Source of the DNA: Bacteroidia bacterium
Lineage (GTDB): Bacteria; Bacteroidota; Bacteroidia; Flavobacteriales; Flavobacteriaceae
Direction: 5' to 3'
Assembly (NCBI GenBank): GCA_030425285.1
Contig: JAUIAY010000001.1
Span: forward strand, 668,963-732,962
DNA length: 64,000 nt
Part shown: in pieces, positions 7,919 to 64,000 of the stretch
Position numbering within the stretch: the stretch's first letter is position 1
Layout: the number at the start of each line of letters is the position of its first letter
Translations under genes and position numbers: made by a program
Notes under the pieces: generated by a model
The model's input: only the letters and a program-made list of their open reading frames with translations
Databases searched by the model: none
Told to the model about the DNA's origin: nothing

Positions 7919-9682
7919 CTAAAATTTATAACTAAATCCAGTATAGACACCTATAATATAAGGTCTAAAATTACCAGAGGTATTGTTGTATCCGTTTAAT
8001 TGATATTTGAAGGTAGGCTCCAAATTAAATTTAAACGCATCAGAAAATTTATAATTAATGCCAAGACCTAAATTGGTGCTAAAGCTCACATTATTGATAT
8101 TATTGGCTTCTCCAATGTAGGTGGTATATTCTTCAAATTCTGAATACACTTCATTGTCATCTAAAAAGAAGGTACTCACACCACCAATAATATTTAATCC
8201 AAATCGGTTGTTAATGAGTTTATATTCCAATTCAACAGGAACTTCATAATAGCTTAACCTTTGACTAATAGCTGCGTTGTATAACACATCGTTTATTTGT
8301 TGAACACCTAAATTATTGGCGCTAAAAGCATTTAAAGTTTGATATTGAGGCGTTAGGTTAATATTTCGAAGCGGATTGACAGGAGGCGTGTTATTACCAC
8401 CTGGTGTCTCATATAAAATAACATTATCGGTATCATAACTTAGATTAAGCGAATTGACACCAGATCTTACAGATAATTTTTTACTTAAGGCATAGCTTAC
8501 ATTTACACCATAACTCATGTTTACCTCACCGCTTTTAGAGTTAGAAACAAATTGGTCGTCAATGTGCGAGCCTTTTCCAAGAGAATTGTAGTAAACAGGC
8601 GCAACATTAGCTGCAACTTGCCACCTGTTTACCAATTCTTCTTTTTCTTCTTCTTTTTCACTAATGTTGTCTAATTGAGCAATTTCTTCCTCAATAGAAG
8701 GCAATTCGCCAGTTGCAAGCGAATCGCCAACTTTTTGATTGTCCTCTTTTTCTTTTTCATTATGAGGTGTGTCGCCTTTCATAGAATTAAGAGCGACAGC
8801 TTCTTGGGTTTTTTCCGTATCCAAAGCCTTTTCAACAGCACTTGCATCTAGCTCTGGCGTTGAGTTAGATTGAACAACTGCTGAATTAACTGTATTTGGA
8901 TTGGAAGAAACGGGATTATTTGTTGAAGAATCTAATGAATTTCGGTCATTAGATTTTGACGGGTTTTTTTGAGATGCAATATCCGCAACTTGGGACGTAT
9001 TGTTGTCTTCTAAAACCTTGGTGGAATTAGATGTCACTACGTTTTTGTTTGATTCCGCAATTTGGGACGAGTTTAAAGTGGTATTATTAACAGAATAAGA
9101 AACGTTATTTTCTTGGTTCTCGCTTGTACTTTCTCCAGATTCAACATGAGCAACTTTAGACTCTGGATACTCTGAATTTGAAACAGTGTTTAAGTTTGTG
9201 TTTTTTAAATTAGAACCATTTGTTTTAGGAGCTTGGTTAGCCTCTGTTGTAGAATTGGCAACATCTTCTCCTGAAGGCATATTTTCAGGATTGCCTTTTG
9301 TTAAATCACCTTCTGAATTAATATTAGCTACTGATGTTTCAGAGTTGTTTTCAATTGAACGGTTTGACGATGATGCCTCACTATCGTTAACGTTTTTGGA
9401 GTCATTGCCAAATGTATCTGAAGCATTAGTGTCTACAGTGTTTTGTTTCGGAAGCGTTGACGAATTATTTCCATCAAACACCCAGGTGCCAACTGTAAAT
9501 AGGATAGACAATAAGGCAGCAATACCAGCTAATCGAAGCCACAAAGGAAAGGCTTTTTTAGGCTCTTCGTTTTCTTGGTTCATTTGACCTTGAATGTTGT
9601 TCCAAAGTTCAGGGTTTGGAGCGACCTCAAAGTCTTTCAGCTTTTCCTGGAAAATTCTATCGATATGTTTTTTATCACTCAT
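7919..9682 (-). CDS. Membrane-anchored outer-membrane beta-barrel protein, likely sigma-factor partner
   Basis: 587 residues. A short cytoplasmic N-terminus (1-45, with PNPELWNNIQGQM as in Bacteroidota anti-sigma-like proteins) precedes one transmembrane helix at about 48-69. Residues about 72-340 form a long Ser/Asn/Thr/Glu-rich, low-complexity linker. The last 230 residues look like a PorT-type outer-membrane beta-barrel with alternating strands, ending in an aromatic YKF. Its start overlaps the stop of the ECF sigma gene by one base. The layout suggests one chain linking inner and outer membranes and holding the sigma factor; this is inferred from position and topology, since no classical zinc anti-sigma motif is present. 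Confidence 0.75.
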   Translation of the reverse strand: MSDKKHIDRIFQEKLKDFEVAPNPELWNNIQGQMNQENEEPKKAFPLWLRLAGIAALLSILFTVGTWVFDGNNSSTLPKQNTVDTNASDTFGNDSKNVNDSEASSSNRSIENNSETSVANINSEGDLTKGNPENMPSGEDVANSTTEANQAPKTNGSNLKNTNLNTVSNSEYPESKVAHVESGESTSENQENNVSYSVNNTTLNSSQIAESNKNVVTSNSTKVLEDNNTSQVADIASQKNPSKSNDRNSLDSSTNNPVSSNPNTVNSAVVQSNSTPELDASAVEKALDTEKTQEAVALNSMKGDTPHNEKEKEDNQKVGDSLATGELPSIEEEIAQLDNISEKEEEKEELVNRWQVAANVAPVYYNSLGKGSHIDDQFVSNSKSGEVNMSYGVNVSYALSKKLSVRSGVNSLNLSYDTDNVILYETPGGNNTPPVNPLRNINLTPQYQTLNAFSANNLGVQQINDVLYNAAISQRLSYYEVPVELEYKLINNRFGLNIIGGVSTFFLDDNEVYSEFEEYTTYIGEANNINNVSFSTNLGLGINYKFSDAFKFNLEPTFKYQLNGYNNTSGNFRPYIIGVYTGFSYKF

Positions 9683-10224
9683 TACAATGATTGCGAGTTT
9701 AAGCTCGCTTTGTATATTTCAATTTTTTCTATTAATAATTTTCGGGCTCTTGCCAGATTGGATTTTGATGTCCCCATGGTTATATCCAGTAAATCGGCTA
9801 TTTCTTTATGCGAATAACCATCGAGAGCATACAAGTTAAACACCAATCTATATCGGTCAGGTAATTCTTGAATGATTCTCAATAGAAACTCAATAGTTAA
9901 ATCGTCATCTTCAATATCCAATTCAACATCTTCAATTAATTCTTCATTAACTATTTCAAAAACACCTTGGTTTCTATAACGCTGCAACGCAGTATTGATA
10001 GTAATCCGTTTTAACCAACCTTCAAAAGAACCTTTGTTATCATATTGACCAATTTTTTTAAAAATGGTCAAAAAAGCATCTTGCAGATTATCCTCTGCCT
10101 CCGCATAGTTTCTTGAGTACTTTAAGCATACCGAAAACAATTTACTCGAAAAGAGTTGATATAGTTCGCTTTGTGCTTTAGTATCATTTTTACTACAGTT
10201 TATTATGAGTTGTTTTAAACTCAC
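9682..10224 (-). CDS. ECF-type RNA polymerase sigma factor
   Basis: 180 residues, usual ECF size. Region 2 is at about 25-85 (YAEAEDNLQDAFLTIFKKIG, then GSFEGWLKRITINTA). Region 4 is at about 120-170 (LPDRYRLVFNLYALDGYSHK, then EIADLLDITMGTSKSNLARA). It directs RNA polymerase to a special promoter set. The gene sits between a small lipoprotein gene (28-base gap) and the barrel protein (one-base overlap). An ECF-like promoter at 10697-10727 precedes the lipoprotein, so the operon is probably self-activated. Confidence 0.92.
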   Translation of the reverse strand: MSLKQLIINCSKNDTKAQSELYQLFSSKLFSVCLKYSRNYAEAEDNLQDAFLTIFKKIGQYDNKGSFEGWLKRITINTALQRYRNQGVFEIVNEELIEDVELDIEDDDLTIEFLLRIIQELPDRYRLVFNLYALDGYSHKEIADLLDITMGTSKSNLARARKLLIEKIEIYKASLNSQSL

Positions 10225-10252: not shown

Positions 10253-10660
10253 TTAATCTATAACAGGAACCTCAACAATCATATATTGATCTTCCCCATT
10301 TTCATCTTCACCTTGCCAAAACTTAAAGATGTACAAATCTTCAGTTGTTGCCTTAAATCTAAATGTTGCTTCTGTCAGGGCATCGATATCTGTACAACTA
10401 TACTCACCTTGAAAATAAGTAGCTACAATAGCAACAGTTCTTTCATTGGATTCACTCGTATAATAAATGTCATTGAATCCATGACAAGAAGTAGGTCGCA
10501 AATACTCAAGATAAATATCATAAGTTTCATTGCGTTCAAATTCTGTTGGAAGAATGGCATTTTCTACAGGCAAGATTACAAAGGAAATCTCTTCCATCCC
10601 ATCGTCAAGACTACAGGACATTGCCATTAAAAACAACAAACAAACAACTATTTTTTTCAT
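10253..10660 (-). CDS. Small lipoprotein of the ECF sigma operon
   Basis: 135 residues. The signal peptide ends in AMSC, with lipidated Cys at residue 16, followed by an acidic Asp-rich tether. The mature part contains two further cysteines (PTSCHGF and EYSCTD) that could pair, plus a C-terminal FKFWQGEDENGEDQ strand region. I do not recognise a family. It is the first gene of the operon with the ECF sigma factor, 36 bases downstream of the ECF-like promoter. A role as sensor or target of the sigma factor is plausible but unproven. Confidence 0.75.
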   Translation of the reverse strand: MKKIVVCLLFLMAMSCSLDDGMEEISFVILPVENAILPTEFERNETYDIYLEYLRPTSCHGFNDIYYTSESNERTVAIVATYFQGEYSCTDIDALTEATFRFKATTEDLYIFKFWQGEDENGEDQYMIVEVPVID

Positions 10661-10696
10661 GGTAATATTAAATGTTTAATTCACATATTCACCCTA

Positions 10697-10727
10697 TAGA
10701 TGCAAAAAGTGCAAAAAGGTTGCGTCA
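10697..10727 (-). promoter_or_regulatory. ECF-type promoter, left copy of a 31-bp inverted repeat
   Basis: Read on the minus strand it begins TGACGCAACC and ends GCATCTA. GCAACC resembles the AAC-type ECF -35 element and ATCTA an ECF -10, 16 bases apart. The sequence is identical over 31 bp to 11835-11865 in inverse orientation. It sits just past the recA terminator and 36 bases before the lipoprotein ATG, so it probably drives lipoprotein-sigma-barrel. Confidence 0.65.
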
Positions 10728-10732
10728 AAAAA

Positions 10733-10765
10733 TAAAAAAAATCCCAAATTTTTGGGATTTTTTTT
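10733..10765. terminator. recA terminator
   Basis: The stem AAAAAAATCCCAAA / TTTGGGATTTTTTT with a two-base loop starts three bases after the recA stop in the minus direction. It separates recA transcription from the ECF promoter immediately beyond it. Confidence 0.85.
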
Positions 10766-10767
10766 AT

Positions 10768-11769
10768 TTAAGAGGTTTTTAAAGCCTCCCTAATCTTACT
10801 TTCCAGCTCATCCATAAGCTCTGGATTGTCTTTTATTAGGGCTTTTACAGCATCCCGTCCTTGACCGAGTTTTGTTTCGTCGTAACTAAACCACGAGCCA
10901 CTTTTTTTAACAATTTCAAGATCAACGGCTATATCCAATATTTCACCAACTTTGGAAACACCTTCACCATACATAATGTCAAACTCTGCTGTTTTAAAAG
11001 GAGGTGCTACTTTGTTCTTAACAATTTTAACACGTGTCTTGTTTCCAGAGACAGTGCCATCGGTTTCTTTAATTTGTGTAGAACGTCTGATGTCTATTCT
11101 AACCGAAGCATAGAATTTAAGAGCATTACCACCTGTAGTTGTTTCAGGGTTGCCAAACATCACACCAATTTTTTCTCGTAATTGGTTAATGAAAATAACG
11201 GTGCAATTCGTTTTACTGATGGAAGCAGTTAATTTTCTTAAAGCTTGAGACATCAATCTAGCATGCAAGCCCATTTTAGAGTCACCCATTTCACCTTCAA
11301 TCTCACTTTTAGGAGTTAAAGCCGCAACCGAGTCAATGACCACAATATCTATAGCGCCAGAACGAATTAAATTGTCGGCGATTTCCAAAGCCTGTTCGCC
11401 ATTGTCAGGTTGTGATATAATTAAGTTGTCTATGTCAACACCTAATTTTTCAGCATAAAACCTGTCAAAAGCATGTTCTGCATCAATAAAGGCAGCAATT
11501 CCACCACCTTTTTGAGCTTCAGCTATGGCATGTAATGTCAAAGTTGTTTTTCCTGACGATTCAGGGCCATAAATTTCTATAACACGCCCTCTGGGATAAC
11601 CACCTACACCGAGTGCAATATCAAGTCCTAAAGAACCAGACGGAATGGCATCAACATCAACCACTGCCTGATCACTCATTTTCATTACTGTTCCTTTACC
11701 ATACGCCTTGTCCAGCTTATCTAAAGTTAGCTTTAATGCTTTTAATTTTGCATCTTTTTCACTGCTCAT
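10768..11769 (-). CDS. recA: Recombinase RecA
   Basis: 333 residues, typical length. Forms ATP-dependent filaments on single-stranded DNA for strand exchange and the SOS response. Walker A is GPESSGKT at residues 68-75 and Walker B is [12 protein letters not shown]. The L1/L2 region ([20 protein letters not shown]) and the C-terminal domain are intact. Its terminator follows directly. The gene is bounded on both sides by copies of the outward-facing 31-bp ECF-type promoter, and the right copy shares the upstream intergenic region. No LexA-type operator was recognised. Confidence 0.98.
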
Positions 11770-11834
11770 TTGTTGTTGTTTTTTAATTTGATAGGTCAGC
11801 TAAATTACGATAAGTTTTAATTTTTTCAATATTC

Positions 11835-11865
11835 TGACGCAACCTTTTTGCACTTTTTGCATCTA
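11835..11865 (+). promoter_or_regulatory. ECF-type promoter, right copy of the 31-bp inverted repeat
   Basis: Identical over 31 bp to the left copy at 10697-10727 but on the plus strand: TGACGCAACC, a T-rich spacer containing GCAC, then GCATCTA. It is followed by a short transcript region (ORF at 11958, terminator at 12111). Both copies point away from recA into genes, which supports a promoter over a chance repeat. Confidence 0.6.
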
Positions 11866-11957
11866 CTATATAAAGTGGGGAACTTTTGCTATGAAATCAA
11901 TCGTATTTAATGCGATTAATTTTGTCTGCTCTTTTTAACATTTAAAAAATTGTACAG

Positions 11958-12050
11958 ATGAAATTTATTAAGAAAACTTTAATTAACAAGGCATTAGGCG
12001 TTTCAGTGGTTGTATTTATAAACAGCAGCTGTAAAGCCGATGGAGGTTAG
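11958..12050 (+). CDS. Tiny lipoprotein-like peptide (30 residues)
   Basis: Small ORF of 30 codons. It has a basic N-terminus (MKFIKKTLINK), a hydrophobic core (ALGVSVVVFI), then NSSCKADGG and stop. It looks like a lipoprotein signal peptide with almost no mature part; cleavage before Cys25 would leave a six-residue lipopeptide. The -3 residue is Asn, which is unusual for a lipobox, although Ser at -1 matches other lipoproteins in this window. It lies 92 bases after the ECF-type promoter and 60 bases before a terminator. It may be a secreted or toxic peptide, a regulatory ORF, or chance within a small RNA. Confidence 0.5.
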   Translation: MKFIKKTLINKALGVSVVVFINSSCKADGG

Positions 12051-12110
12051 CTCTTATTATGTTTTTTGATTTAGAAGAATGAAAAAATATTAATAACGAG
12101 TTAGTCTACT

Positions 12111-12142
12111 AAAAGCGTTCTGAAAAACAGGACGCTTTTTTT
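12111..12142 (+). terminator. Terminator of the short ECF-driven transcript
   Basis: Stem AAAAGCGTTCTG / CAGGACGCTTTT with one G-T pair and a five-base loop, followed by T residues. It closes the transcript predicted to start at about 11872. Confidence 0.8.
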
Positions 12143-12181
12143 ATGGACCGTCTTTAAAAATTAGAATTCATATTAAATATG

Positions 12182-12189
12182 TACTTTTG
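12182..12189 (+). promoter_or_regulatory. Promoter -7 element of trhO
   Basis: TACTTTTG, a perfect TAnnTTTG, 36 bases before the trhO ATG. Confidence 0.55.
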
Positions 12190-12225
12190 CAGCAAATAAA
12201 TCTTTAACCTTAAAATTAGTATAGC

Positions 12226-13296
12226 ATGCAACTGTACAATAACTTAAGCGCTAAAGAAAGAGCAGCCTTAATTGAGCAAGCGGGAAAGGACCGTTTGACA
12301 ATCTCTTTCTATAAATACGCCAAAATTAAAAATCCTGAACTTTTTAGAAATCATATGTTCCTAGCTTGGGACCAATTGGATGTGCTCGGAAGAATTTACA
12401 TTGCTACCGAAGGAATTAATGCACAACTATCGGTTCCGGCAGAGAATTTTAATGATTTCAAGGAGCATTTAGACACTATCTCGTTTTTGGAAAATGTTCG
12501 GTTGAATATCGCCATTGAGCATGATAATTTTGCCTTTTTAAAACTGAAAGTAAAGGTTCGAGATAAGATTGTCGCTGATGGATTGAATGACGAAACATTT
12601 GACGTTACAAACAAAGGTATTCATGTTGAAGCAGAACAGTTTAACGAGCTCATCGAAGATCCTGATGTGGTGTTGGTCGACATGCGTAACCATTACGAAA
12701 GTGAAATAGGGCATTTTAAAAATGCGGTCACTCCTGATGTGGATACATTTAGAGAATCATTGGATATCATTGAAGAAGATTTACGTGAGCACAAGGAGAA
12801 CAAAAAACTGGTAATGTATTGTACAGGTGGCATCCGTTGTGAGAAAGCCAGTGCTTATTACAAACACAAAGGGTTTAAAAATGTCTTTCAATTGGAGGGC
12901 GGCATTATAAACTATGCGCGTCAAGTTGAGGAGCAAGGTCTGGAAAACAAATTTATTGGCAAAAACTTTGTGTTTGACCAAAGACGATCAGAGCGTATTT
13001 CTGATGATATCATCGCACAATGTCATCAGTGTGGTGAGCCAGCTGATTTACATACCAATTGTGCTAATGAGGCGTGTCATTTACTATTCATTCAGTGCGA
13101 CAGTTGTAAAGAAAAAATGGAAAACTGCTGTTCGACTAACTGTATGGAAATAAATAGATTGCCTTATGAAGAACAAAAAGCTTTAAGAAAAGGGCAGGGC
13201 AATAGCAACGATATTTTTAAGAAAGGACGTGCGGACCATTTACCGTTTAAAAAAGACCTGCGAAACATTTTTGACGTTATAGACAAGAAGAGCTAG
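12226..13296 (+). CDS. trhO: tRNA uridine(34) hydroxylase, rhodanese family
   Basis: 356 residues. The TrhO (YceA) family hydroxylates U34 of certain tRNAs on the way to 5-carboxymethoxy- or methoxyuridine. An N-terminal acylphosphatase-like domain covers about 1-110. A rhodanese domain at about 125-230 has active-site loop CTGGIRCEKA with Cys199. A Cys-rich C-terminal segment follows (CHQCGEPADLHTNCANEACH, then CDSCKEKMENCC). Length and order match the family. The radical SAM gene starts on the next base after its stop, so the two are one operon. Confidence 0.92.
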   Translation: MQLYNNLSAKERAALIEQAGKDRLTISFYKYAKIKNPELFRNHMFLAWDQLDVLGRIYIATEGINAQLSVPAENFNDFKEHLDTISFLENVRLNIAIEHDNFAFLKLKVKVRDKIVADGLNDETFDVTNKGIHVEAEQFNELIEDPDVVLVDMRNHYESEIGHFKNAVTPDVDTFRESLDIIEEDLREHKENKKLVMYCTGGIRCEKASAYYKHKGFKNVFQLEGGIINYARQVEEQGLENKFIGKNFVFDQRRSERISDDIIAQCHQCGEPADLHTNCANEACHLLFIQCDSCKEKMENCCSTNCMEINRLPYEEQKALRKGQGNSNDIFKKGRADHLPFKKDLRNIFDVIDKKS

Positions 13297-24889: not shown

Positions 24890-27800
24890 ATGAAAAAAAC
24901 ACTACTATTCATTATTTTAATGAGTACAGGGTTTGTTTTTTCTCAAAACAAATCTTTTTGGACAAAAGAAGCCATAAAGTCTTCGGCTTTTATTAAACAA
25001 AACAAACAGACTTTACCTAAAAATCAAACCTTTGGTTTAGACATTAATGGCCTAAAACAAACATTAAGCCAATCACCCAAACGGGAAGATTTTGCAAGAC
25101 AGTCAAATGTTATTGTATCGTTCCCGAATTCAGATGGGACCATGGAGCGTTTCAGAGTATTTGAAGCGTCTGTTTTTCACCCAGATTTACAAGCTAGATA
25201 TCCTGATATTCGCTCTTATGCAGGCCAAGGAATCGATGACCCTTCAGCAGTCATTCGCTTTAGTGTATCACCACAAGGGTTTCAAAGTATGAGCTTGTCT
25301 GCCAATAGACCAGCAACTTTTATAGAGTCTATTACTAGCGATGGAAATCTGTATGCAGCTTATAACCGTCAGGACAGAGTGAATACAGATGATGATTTTG
25401 TATGCGAAGTCTCCGACCAAATGCATACAAGTATTGACAGTGGAGACATGCACATGCGAAATGCGGATGATGCTATTTTAAGAACGTACAGATTGGCTGT
25501 TTCTACAACAGGTGAATATACAGCTTATCACGGAGGAACAAAAGCATTGGCATTGGCAGCGATAAATGCTACAATGACGCGTGTAAATGGTGTATTTGAA
25601 AATGATTTTAATGCTACCATGGTTTTGATAGCTAATAATGACGATGTTATTTATACTAATTCTAGTACAGATCCTTACAGCAATAATTACAATAGCCAAT
25701 TGCAATCAACATTAACAAGTGTTATTGGAGAATCCAATTATGATGTTGGACACCTTTTTGCCAGAGCATCTAATAATGGAAATGCTGGTTGTATCGGTTG
25801 CGTGTGCGTAAATGGTAGTAAGGGAAGTGCCTTTACATCTCGCACGGATCCAGAAGGAGACCCTTTTGATATAGATTATGTAGCTCATGAATTGGGACAT
25901 CAATTTGGAGCCAATCACACGTGGACATTTAATGGAAACGAAGGAACCAATGCCCAAATGGAGCCAGGAAGTGGTTCAACCATTATGGGTTATGCAGGAA
26001 TTACTGGTGCTACGGATGTTCAGTCTAATAGTGACCCATATTTCCATGCTAGATCTATAGAACAGGTTACCAATTATATTAAATCCAGAAGTTGTCAAAC
26101 CAATACCAGTACAGGTAATAATGTGCCTTCGGTAAATGCAGGTAATAATTATACCATTCCAAAAGGAACGCCATTTGTTTTAGAAGGAACTGCAACCGAT
26201 GCTGATTCAGGAGATGTATTAACCTATTGCTGGGAGCAGTATGATGAGAACAACGCCTCTACAACTTACCCAAGCACAACAGCTACTTCGGGTGTAGCAT
26301 TTAGATCATATAATCCAACAACAGATACTAAACGGTACTTCCCTAGGTTATCAACCATCAAATCTGGAAATACCTCGTGGCAATGGGAAGCAGTTCCCAA
26401 TGTGGCTCGAAATCTAAATTTCAGATTGACCGTTAGGGATAATAGAGCAGGAAGTGGCACCAATAATAGTGACGATATGGTTGTAACAGTTAATGGAACT
26501 GCAGGCCCTTTTGTAGTGAATTCTCCAAATTCAAATGTGACATGGAATGCAGGAACCACCCAGACGGTTTCTTGGAATGTTGCAGGGACAACAGGGAATG
26601 GTGTTAATGCAGCAAATGTTGATATTTTCTTATCAACTGATGGCGGTGATACCTATCCAATAGCTTTGGCAGTTGGCGTCCCTAATGATGGCTCCCATGA
26701 TATTGTTGTTCCTAACAATCAAGGAAATCAAAATAGAATTATGGTAAGAGGATCAAACAATATTTTCTTTGATATTTCAAACTCGAACTTTACCATTTCA
26801 GGACAGGTTGTTTGTAATGCAACAGTACCTACAGGATTAAACGCTTCAAGCGTTGGGTCTAATTCGGCAACGCTTTCTTGGAACTCTGTAGCTGGCGCAA
26901 CTTACGATGTGAGATATAGAGAAACGGGAACCACAACTTGGACAACCAATGCTGTAACTGGAGTGTCAACTTCTGTTTCTGGTCTAAATATATTGACGCA
27001 GTATGAAGCCCAAGTAAGAAGCAAGTGTAATGGTGGCAGTAATTCTACTTACAGTAGCTCAATAAACTTCACGACAACTGATGTTCAATTGAATTATTGT
27101 TCTTCAGCAAGCACCAATGTGAATGATGAATATATTGGTAGAGTTGAACTAAACACTATCGATAATAGTTCAGGAGCGCAATTTTATAGTGATTTCACAG
27201 GAGTATCAACAACTTTGACCAAGGGAAGTCAGTATACCATTACGGTAACACCTATTTGGACAGGTACTGTTTACAGTGAAGGATATTCTGTATGGATTGA
27301 CTATAACCGTGATGGGGATTTTAGTGATGCAGGCGAGCAAGTTTGGACACAAAATGCCACACAAAATTCACCGGTAAGCGGCTCTTTTACAATTCCGACT
27401 GGAGCTGTTGAAAATAGCACAACCATGCGGGTTTCCATGAAATATAATGGTGTGCCAACAGCTTGTGAAACTTTCCAGTATGGTGAAGTTGAAGATTATA
27501 CGGTTGTTATTGAGGGGTCAGGACCAGATACGCAAGCACCGAGCGCACCAACAAGTTTATCGGCTTCCAATACTACGACAACAACTACAGATTTAAACTG
27601 GAACACATCAACCGACAATGTAGGTGTAACAGGATACGATGTTTACCAAGGGGCTAGTGTTATCGCTTCGGTTTCAAGTACATCTTACCAAGTAACGGGC
27701 TTGAGTCCAAGCACATCATACGCATTTTCAGTGATCGCTAAAGATGCTGCAGGCAATGAATCTAACGCCAGTAACACAGCTAACGTTACAACTTTGGATC

Positions 27801-62613: not shown

Positions 62614-64000
62614 ATGAAAACAGATATAAAACATATTGAGCTAATCACAAAATATTTAAACGGAGAACTTTCATTTTCTGAATCCCAAATTTTTGAAGAA
62701 CGATTGAATACAGATAACGAGTTTAAGGAATTGTTTGACGAACAGAAAATAATAATTCAAGGAATTAAGCGTACTGGATTGAAAGAAGATATCGTTATTG
62801 CGAAGCAACGTTATTTTACGACTAAATGGTTAAAAATCATTGGGGTTTCAGGAACCACAATTGTGGTTTTAATTGTAGCAGGAATTTTATGGTTTAACAA
62901 ACCAGATCCCAAGCCAATACCATCTCAAAACGAAATGAGTTTAGAAATGGAAGAAGCGCCTAAAACAGAAACTTCTTCTGCACCAGAGCATGAAGTTTTA
63001 GATATTCAGACAGATACCTTAAAAACAGTTGAGCCACCTATTGCCTATATGGAATCTAGTGATTCGGTAAATAAGGTAGAACAAAATCCAATAAAAAAAG
63101 CAGTGACCACGATTCAAAACGATTCTTTGATTGAAAGCGAGTCTGTAGAAGCAATCAAAACAAGCCATCAATCCTTAAATTCATTCTTTGAAGCTGTAAA
63201 AAAGAAACCACAGGTTACTGAAATAAATGTTGAAGAGGAAACATCTCTTACCCTTGATGAGGGAACGACAATTACAATACCAAAGCATGCCTTTGTTGAC
63301 GAGAAAACAAATAGGTTAGTTCGTGGTACGGTTCAATTAGAGGTTACAGAGTACTATAAGCTATCTGATATGCTTTTAGGAAACTTATCAACTACCTCCA
63401 ATGCTCAACCATTAGAAACAGGAGGGATGTTATATGTACAAGTCACAAAAAATGGCAAGAAACTAGGAACAATCAAACCTATTTCAATTGGCTTTCCTTT
63501 TATAAAGGAAAAACCTGATATGCAGCTGTTTTCCGGAAAGATGAATGATGATGGTGTTAACTGGATTCCTGAAGGCAACCGAACCCAAGCAGTTTTATCT
63601 ATTGATTCTATTGAAGAAAATATAGAAGTTCCTTTTAATGTTGTTGAAAATGTTCCTGTATTTCCTGGCTGTCAAGGTGAAAACCAAGAATTGAAAGATT
63701 GTTTTAATACCAAGATGAAAGATTTTTTAACTCAAAACTTCAATCTTGAAATTGCTGAAGAATTGAACTTAACTGGAAAGAACAGAATCAATACTTTTTT
63801 TAAGATAAATGAAAACGGCAATATAACAAATGTAAGAATTAGAGCTTCAAGTGTAACATTAGGAGAAGAAATGATGCGTATCATTAAATTATTGCCAAAG
63901 TTCCAACCTGCTCTTCAAAGAGATAGGCCAGTAAAAGTTCCATACTTCATGCCATTTGAAGTTAACCTTCCTGGAAGAGATAGGAATCTACCGATGATAA
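62614..64000 (+). CDS. Membrane-anchored sigma-factor partner with TonB C-terminal-like region (3' partial)
   Basis: 462 codons are visible; no stop before the window end. Short cytoplasmic N-terminus (1-72, with ELITKYLNGELSFSESQIFE like anti-sigma N-termini), one transmembrane helix at about 73-98 (WLKIIGVSGTTIVVLIVAGI), then a Pro/Glu/Ser-rich periplasmic linker. A beta-rich domain covers about 205-330. From about 348 (VVENVPVFPGCQGENQELKD) the sequence resembles TonB C-terminal-like domains of Bacteroidota. It begins 12 bases after the sigma factor gene, so it is likely its anti-sigma or sensor partner. Confidence 0.75.
   Translation, partial: MKTDIKHIELITKYLNGELSFSESQIFEERLNTDNEFKELFDEQKIIIQGIKRTGLKEDIVIAKQRYFTTKWLKIIGVSGTTIVVLIVAGILWFNKPDPKPIPSQNEMSLEMEEAPKTETSSAPEHEVLDIQTDTLKTVEPPIAYMESSDSVNKVEQNPIKKAVTTIQNDSLIESESVEAIKTSHQSLNSFFEAVKKKPQVTEINVEEETSLTLDEGTTITIPKHAFVDEKTNRLVRGTVQLEVTEYYKLSDMLLGNLSTTSNAQPLETGGMLYVQVTKNGKKLGTIKPISIGFPFIKEKPDMQLFSGKMNDDGVNWIPEGNRTQAVLSIDSIEENIEVPFNVVENVPVFPGCQGENQELKDCFNTKMKDFLTQNFNLEIAEELNLTGKNRINTFFKINENGNITNVRIRASSVTLGEEMMRIIKLLPKFQPALQRDRPVKVPYFMPFEVNLPGRDRNLPMI

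Follow-up and report, generated by a model that had tools for sequence, protein, structure and literature searches.

This locus of a marine-type bacterium raises the question why recA is bracketed by a 31-bp inverted repeat in the window (the whole stretch of 64,000 nucleotides that was analysed), and what the two arms of the repeat do. The original prediction held that the arms are exact inverse complements, that each contains GCAACC, 16 bases and ATCTA, and that both point away from recA. This is borne out when the sequence is checked base by base: the match stops at 31 bp on both sides, both boxes are present in both arms, and neither arm is directed at recA (Table 1). As had been claimed, the right copy faces the lipoprotein-sigma-barrel operon, with 36 bases between its end and the ATG of the ORF at 10660. 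A chance origin of an exact inverted repeat of this length is not expected in 64 kb, and the pair is best read, from its sequence, as two outward promoters of the ECF-sigma type. It is proposed here that they are the promoters of one ECF sigma factor, encoded at 9682-10224, which would serve an autoregulated Dma-like operon, a short peptide-encoding RNA and a set of exported proteins; the probability of this reading is estimated at about 0.85.

Table 1. Features of the recA locus (positions in the window; a dot marks a feature without strand).
Feature	Position	Strand	Remarks
Dma-like protein, 587 aa	7919..9682	-	No Pfam match; predicted TM helix, tether and barrel
ECF sigma factor, 180 aa	9682..10224	-	Pfam Sigma70_r2 and r4_2; Das-like by its position beside the Dma-like gene
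Lipoprotein, 135 aa, first gene of the operon	10253..10660	-	Beta-sandwich model; no Pfam family
Right ECF-type promoter (predicted)	10697..10727	-	TGACGCAACC-N15-CATCTA; 36 nt 5' of the lipoprotein ATG
Symmetric hairpin with T runs, probable recA terminator	10730..10769	.	Between recA and the right promoter
recA (bystander)	10768..11769	-	Between both promoters; same direction as the sigma operon
Probable own promoter of recA	11800..11829	-	TTG-N19-TAATTTAG, near the sigma-A consensus TAnnTTTG
Left ECF-type promoter (predicted)	11835..11865	+	Divergent from recA
Leader of the left transcript	11866..11957	+	Block GG..AA..TTTTGCTATGAAA is conserved; also has a short upstream ORF
Micropeptide ORF, 30 aa	11958..12050	+	MKFIKKTLINKALGVSVVVFINSSCKADGG; stop TAG at 12048-12050
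Hairpin enclosing the stop codon	12045..12106	+	5' arm with the last codon of the peptide and the stop; covariation of the arms among relatives
Intrinsic-terminator-like hairpin and T tract	12112..12142	+	Before the gene at 12226; read from sequence

The promoter motif and its occurrence

In promoters of ECF sigma factors, a -35 box that contains AAC and a distinct -10 box are held at a fixed spacing. GCAACC-N16-ATCTA has this build, with an AAC-type -35 box, a -10 box and a spacing that hardly varies: when 107 recA loci are considered, it is 16 bases in 135 of 138 occurrences and 15 in the other three, and no other value within 8-24 is found. A sigma-70 consensus scan, which covers another promoter type, listed neither copy. 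The left copy, with at most one mismatch, lies within 400 nt of recA in 65 of these 107 loci (own locus included). In the 64-kb window the motif with at most one mismatch has four matches, 1.02 being expected; besides the pair at recA these are an exact match at 63575 and one with a single mismatch at 26192, both apparently fortuitous.

The perfect identity of the two arms is a property of the genome itself but is not conserved among its relatives, where the boxes and their spacing are kept. Left and right spacers are identical in one of the 62 distinct pairs from recA loci, that of the own genome, which is common to a relative of the same genus (G001), and the mean difference between the two copies is 6.35 of 16 bases. 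Because the spacers differ in most relatives, the perfect 31-bp identity is, on sequence grounds, incidental, the conserved part being the two boxes and the distance between them. Concerted evolution of the two copies was considered and rejected: the figures (6.35 versus 6.90 mismatches, 1/10000 permutations) are not separable from the effect of relatedness.

When the own genome is searched with the full pattern and up to three mismatches, 11 sites are found, compared with one for the reversed control. Eight of these have at most one mismatch, one has two and stands before a secreted protein, and two have three and look like chance; a control pattern with the spacer one base longer gives four sites, all with three mismatches. 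The shorter pattern GCAACC-N16-ATCTA has ten exact sites, of which L001 and L007 look like chance. Nine sites in the genome are credible, seven of them away from the recA locus, so the regulon is wider than originally claimed. Each of these seven sites is followed by an ORF with a secretion-type N-terminus, the signal peptides having been assessed by eye. The products are an OMP_b-brl_2 protein, a DUF11 protein, a secreted protein and four proteins resembling lipoproteins, two of which match no Pfam family. Among 25 sites taken from relatives, a set that includes operon lipoproteins, an ORF of 60 aa or longer follows within 220 nt in 18 cases; of these ORFs, 16 score as signal peptides by a simple rule, and the remaining two are the gene behind the short RNA. 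The seven sites that are not followed by such an ORF are six left transcripts and a site in G015 away from recA (L175).

Conservation of the motif in relatives had been set beforehand as one of the refutation tests of the prediction, a test which it has passed: the exact pattern ACGCAACC-N15-CATCTA is present in 231 of 397 Flavobacteriaceae genomes, with the reversed control in 5. In 196 genomes of the order it is present in 20 of 30 members of the family and in 1 of 166 genomes of other families. Judging by these genomes, GCAACC-N16-ATCTA is a Flavobacteriaceae-wide signal.

In four Winogradskyella loci (L067, L073, L081 and L085) a motif copy is found about 4.2 kb from recA, still directed away from it, and no copy adjoins recA on that side. 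This copy may be a displaced left promoter.

recA, the sigma operon and the source of the signal

recA itself appears to be driven by neither copy and to have its own promoter and terminator, as far as these can be recognised by their motifs. TTG is a box of sigma-A promoters. It is followed here by a near match to TAnnTTTG, the sigma-A consensus given in the excerpted text of PMC9723704. The strict form of this promoter pattern is present in only 13 of 107 loci, and a TAnTTTAG variant is present in all seven loci inspected; the hairpin at 10730-10769 was not listed by a consensus terminator scanner. The promoter of recA and the left ECF promoter are back to back, with their upstream boxes 9 bases apart, and mutual interference between the two is possible.

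The sigma operon is a three-gene unit on the minus strand, in which the lipoprotein gene is followed by the genes of the ECF sigma factor and the 587-aa protein; the alignment of the sigma factor comprises 16 sequences. It adjoins recA in Winogradskyella, Lacinutrix, Gelidibacter, Aquimarina, Leeuwenhoekiella, Kordia and Flavobacterium, among other named genera. The motif, with at most one mismatch, precedes the operon in 75 of 80 named loci, which is the arrangement of an autoregulated operon; the five others are L074, L098, L109, L115 and L120, of which L074 and L098 are on contigs that lack recA. A tblastn search for the lipoprotein gave no match at 12 of the 80 named loci. The identification of this lipoprotein as NigD, the type encoded by the Das1 target nigD1, was rejected, as the own protein has no family at E<=1 and NigD is not among the 25 families listed for 38 members, and its predicted beta-sandwich fold has no PDB match at E<=0.001.

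The original prediction that the motif marks the regulon of the ECF factor at 9682 is supported by the motif before the 75 operons, by the spacing fixed at 16 and by co-occurrence. With the sigma factor scored as present at E<=1e-45 and the motif as the exact pattern, 229 of the 397 family genomes have both, 2 have the motif only (G146 and G280), 87 the sigma factor only and 79 neither (Fisher p 1.5e-33, a value that ignores phylogeny). The loci are interrelated and the two samples overlap, and these counts are not independent. Part of the 87 genomes with the sigma factor only may have motif variants, of which GTATCTA, CATCTG and ATCTT were seen, or paralogs of the sigma factor. In ten recA neighbourhoods that have no operon (L031-L040, +-1.5 kb) the motif is absent even with one mismatch allowed; G006 and G007, which are among these ten genomes, have a sigma match elsewhere. 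In G280 (L155) the lipoprotein-sigma-Dma operon is gone from beside recA and the peptide ORF is kept, and the two copies that flank recA end in AACTA and ATCTT, a mild deviation, ATCTT being found also in loci with the sigma factor.

Two other explanations of the pair have to be weighed against these data. The boxes could be promoters of another ECF factor, or of several, with the sigma gene at 9682 being merely one of the targets. ECF-like genes abound in the genomes of the family, a first look giving 2-71 candidates in each genome listed, the boxes could be read by further ECF factors present in the cell, and the 87 genomes that have the sigma factor and not the exact motif are also compatible with this. 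Yet the motif occurs without this sigma factor in only 2 of 231 motif genomes, it is absent from the ten neighbourhoods that have no operon, and in G280, which no longer has the operon beside recA, the two copies deviate, one of them in the form also seen in sigma loci; this explanation is considered improbable. The inverted repeat could instead be a site of recombination or inversion around recA, or the end of a mobile element, as might be suggested by its perfect and inverted 31 bp and by a second lineage, G314 (L156, outside the 62 pairs), which also has identical left and right copies, with another spacer. Against this, the sigma gene and recA keep their relative orientation in all 77 named loci that contain recA, recA and the gene at 12226 are opposed in each of the 63 named loci in which the two were found, the spacers of the two copies differ in 61 of the 62 distinct pairs, and the same boxes are present at unrelated places of the genome. 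A flip site is rejected on account of the constant orientation and the diverged spacers, and the chance that the repeat has any such role is regarded as very small.

The putative tether of the sigma factor is the 587-aa protein, for which an AlphaFold model was obtained with 50 sequences (mean pLDDT 62, pTM 0.47). In this model, the N-terminus has helices at 7-14 and 24-34, at low confidence (pLDDT 55-74), and a helix at 47-69 that coincides with the sole strongly hydrophobic segment. This is followed by a disordered N/S-rich tether to about residue 326 (pLDDT mostly <50 over 73-326) and by an OmpA-like barrel at 354-585 (pLDDT mostly >80), the best PDB structure match of which is OmpA (E 5e-7). 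A PDB sequence search with the protein gave no convincing relative. The domain order of Dma proteins, with an N-terminal region, a TM helix, a disordered tether and a C-terminal beta-barrel, is thus seen in the model, according to which the operon has the anatomy of a Dma/Das system, to which it is likened by domain order.

The predicted left transcript and its peptide

The product of the left copy would be a short RNA coding for a conserved peptide of about 30 aa. It had been predicted that this transcript has its own terminator, and a terminator-like hairpin can indeed be read at 12112-12142, ahead of the gene at 12226-13296, which we take to be of the rhodanese type and TrhO-like. With a purpose-written finder such hairpins are found downstream in 63 of 65 left transcripts, before the next gene where this is recognised, compared with 4-5 of 65 in five dinucleotide shuffles; under a strict rule the numbers are 58 and 0-1. 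The consensus terminator scanner did not list 12112-12142. The median distance from the promoter to the end of the terminator is about 260 nt in transcripts with the peptide and 195 nt in those without.

The own 281-nt transcript folds at z -5.3 when compared with dinucleotide shuffles. For the hairpin that encloses the stop codon, the mean energy in 32 distinct cases is -14.9 kcal/mol with the own arms and -11.6 with swapped arms (0/20000 permutations), and z is below -2 in all 32 (mononucleotide shuffles). RNAalifold gave no consensus structure and no pairs for the MAFFT alignment of this stem, in our reading because indels misalign the arms in that alignment. The leader block T[TA]GCTAT is present in 42 of 65 left transcripts, 0.73 being expected from shuffles. 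When antisense targets of the block were sought in the own genome, 16 matches were obtained, one of which is the gene of the transcript itself, versus 29 for the reversed control. Rfam has no match in the window at the gathering score; the 38 matches below the threshold at 10600-12300 look like chance.

In the long leaders of L014, L020, L022, L047, L050 and L052, a stretch of the type TTCATCTG can pair with CAGATGAA at the start codon of the peptide, and a short upstream reading frame precedes this start. The start-codon hairpin is only suggestive, with a median p of 0.067 over 21 leaders.

A peptide ORF of 25-30 aa that ends in [DE]-G-[GR] is present in 36 of the 65 left transcripts. The peptide usually ends in C-K-x-D-G-G, as C-K-A-D-G-G in the own genome, and M1, C25, D28, G29 and G30 are invariant in 29 aligned forms, a set that excludes L094, L095 and L101 as the most divergent and also some near-duplicates. 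Third codon positions of the ORF vary most, and pN/pS is 0.49 over 35 distinct ORFs and 0.16 over the last six codons. In a profile search of whole genomes, 86 of 397 genomes give matches at E<=0.01, of which the weakest are doubtful, and 85 of the 86 have one match each; the 30 best matches are open frames ending in DGG and a stop, and all 30 have the motif (at most one mismatch) 25-140 nt upstream. The profile was built from left-promoter loci, partly of the same genomes, and the search itself made no use of the motif. When the search is extended to the class, 4 of 247 genomes have a match at E<=0.001, and three of the four belong to the family; L193, L194 and L195 from this search have no ORF ending in DGG. 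The peptide has no match in Pfam or NCBIfam.

A lipoprotein has a lipobox before its Cys. The identification of the peptide as a lipoprotein was rejected, as the lipobox is missing and N[SG][SN] precedes the Cys in the common form. The peptides of L087, L096 and L106 have, by eye, little hydrophobic stretch.

By the same rule, 29 of the 65 left transcripts are without the peptide, many of them from related Winogradskyella, and in several Winogradskyella the frame is broken with traces remaining (by eye). Of these 29, 27 keep the terminator and 20 keep the leader TTGCTAT, three of the latter being without ATG. Because leader block and terminator are retained at such loci, these sequences suggest a function of the RNA beside its peptide. 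In L044 (Flavivirga algicola) the peptide frame seems broken near its end. Eight peptide-less transcripts (L016, L019, L026, L043, L048, L053, L054 and L089) have a common tract, [GA]ACTA[AG]CTC, which is like the 5' arm of the hairpin.

It is quite possible, if on balance not favoured, that the left transcript is only the mRNA of the micropeptide, with the hairpin and the leader serving stability and translation. The purifying selection on the peptide, with its five invariant residues, agrees with this, as do the single match in nearly all matching genomes and the position of the 30 best loci behind the promoter; against it stand the transcripts that keep terminator and leader block when the peptide is gone, a count to which the related Winogradskyella contribute much. 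It is rather unlikely that the transcript works solely in trans as a small RNA, in the manner of the RNAs that depend on sigma-E in enteric bacteria, with the peptide being incidental. Such an RNA would be short, terminated and strongly folded, as this one is predicted to be, and could be kept without the peptide, as is seen in several lineages, but the low pN/pS of the last six codons and the open, DGG-ending frames of the best profile matches argue for a peptide that matters, and the antisense target scan of the own genome is not enriched.

Proposed model and comparison with known systems

The reading of the pair as two promoters of the one ECF sigma factor is built on what is established by computation, namely the motif, its spacing and conservation, the co-occurrence with the sigma factor, the conservation of the peptide and the hairpin, and the Dma-like architecture. 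The dependence on sigma, the transcription starts, the envelope signal and the function of the short RNA and the peptide are steps that we infer. In this model, the right copy very probably switches on an operon that regulates the envelope stress response. By analogy, the 587-aa protein would probably hold the sigma factor at the inner membrane by its N-terminus, with the C-terminal barrel in the outer membrane, and the sigma factor would be set free when the envelope is disturbed, a mechanism borrowed from the Dma/Das systems of Bacteroides. The freed sigma factor would act on the right copy, giving the lipoprotein, the sigma factor itself and the Dma-like protein, a loop of positive autoregulation in which the inhibitor is produced as well. 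From the left copy it would give the short terminated RNA, with the leader block, the peptide of about 30 aa and the hairpin enclosing the stop codon, and from the other sites about seven other exported proteins.

A more tentative proposal, with the odds against it, is that the left transcript is a dual-function effector of this Dma-type envelope response, which acts as an RNA via its 5' block and 3' hairpin and also by its C-x-x-D-G-G micropeptide. Ribosomes that finish the peptide would open the hairpin, so translation would decide on the active form of the RNA. Envelope stress could then also disturb the transcription of recA, because the left promoter is back to back with that of recA itself.

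No description of the promoter signal or the peptide was found in the open-licence PMC literature; GCAACCTTTT occurs in one bacteroidete paper, where it is part of a PCR primer. The predicted short RNA with its conserved peptide is previously undescribed, no Rfam, Pfam or NCBIfam family having been found for it. As an arm of an envelope response in Bacteroidota that works by RNA or peptide, it is a tangible candidate. In the literature found, Dma-type regulators are described from Bacteroides and in connection with vesicle formation. The same domain order is now seen across Flavobacteriaceae, and the sharp promoter signal that accompanies it makes it possible to list the regulon for hundreds of genomes.

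The closest known counterparts are the Dma/Das systems of Bacteroides thetaiotaomicron, which excerpts of PMC13088901 describe as dual membrane-spanning anti-sigma systems; Dma2 is described there with the order of TM helix, disordered tether and outer-membrane barrel. As in those systems, judged by the same excerpts, an ECF sigma gene is found here beside a gene for a protein with an N-terminal region, a TM helix, a long disordered tether and a C-terminal barrel. The N-terminus of the B. thetaiotaomicron proteins is the anti-sigma part, and the same role is putative for the 587-aa protein. Genes of the Dma family lie beside those of ECF21 sigma factors, and the 587-aa gene is beside an ECF sigma gene recognised as such by Pfam. 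In contrast to Dma/Das as described in these excerpts, the host here belongs to another branch of the phylum, a lipoprotein gene usually heads the operon, recA adjoins it, and a short RNA with a micropeptide is predicted to arise from another promoter of this type. Within Flavobacteriaceae, the excerpted text of PMC9723704 describes the SM6 promoters of Flavobacterium psychrophilum, which are likewise of the ECF type, have a CGT box at -10 and drive T9SS genes; the GCAACC/ATCTA motif is absent from its account of SM6 promoters. Other ECF promoters of B. thetaiotaomicron are described in excerpts of PMC12596196.

The enteric sigma-E system is similar in that an envelope-linked ECF sigma factor drives genes of exported proteins and, apparently also at this locus, a short RNA. 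The enteric sigma-E regulon includes the RNAs MicA, RybB and MicL. The locus differs from it by another type of anti-sigma protein, by an unrelated sequence and by an RNA that codes for a peptide. Such an RNA is reminiscent of the dual-function RNAs of the SgrS/SgrT kind. Unlike these, the transcript predicted here has its stop codon inside a covarying hairpin, and a base-pairing role is putative; like them, it would be a short regulated RNA in which a conserved small ORF is combined with conserved RNA parts.
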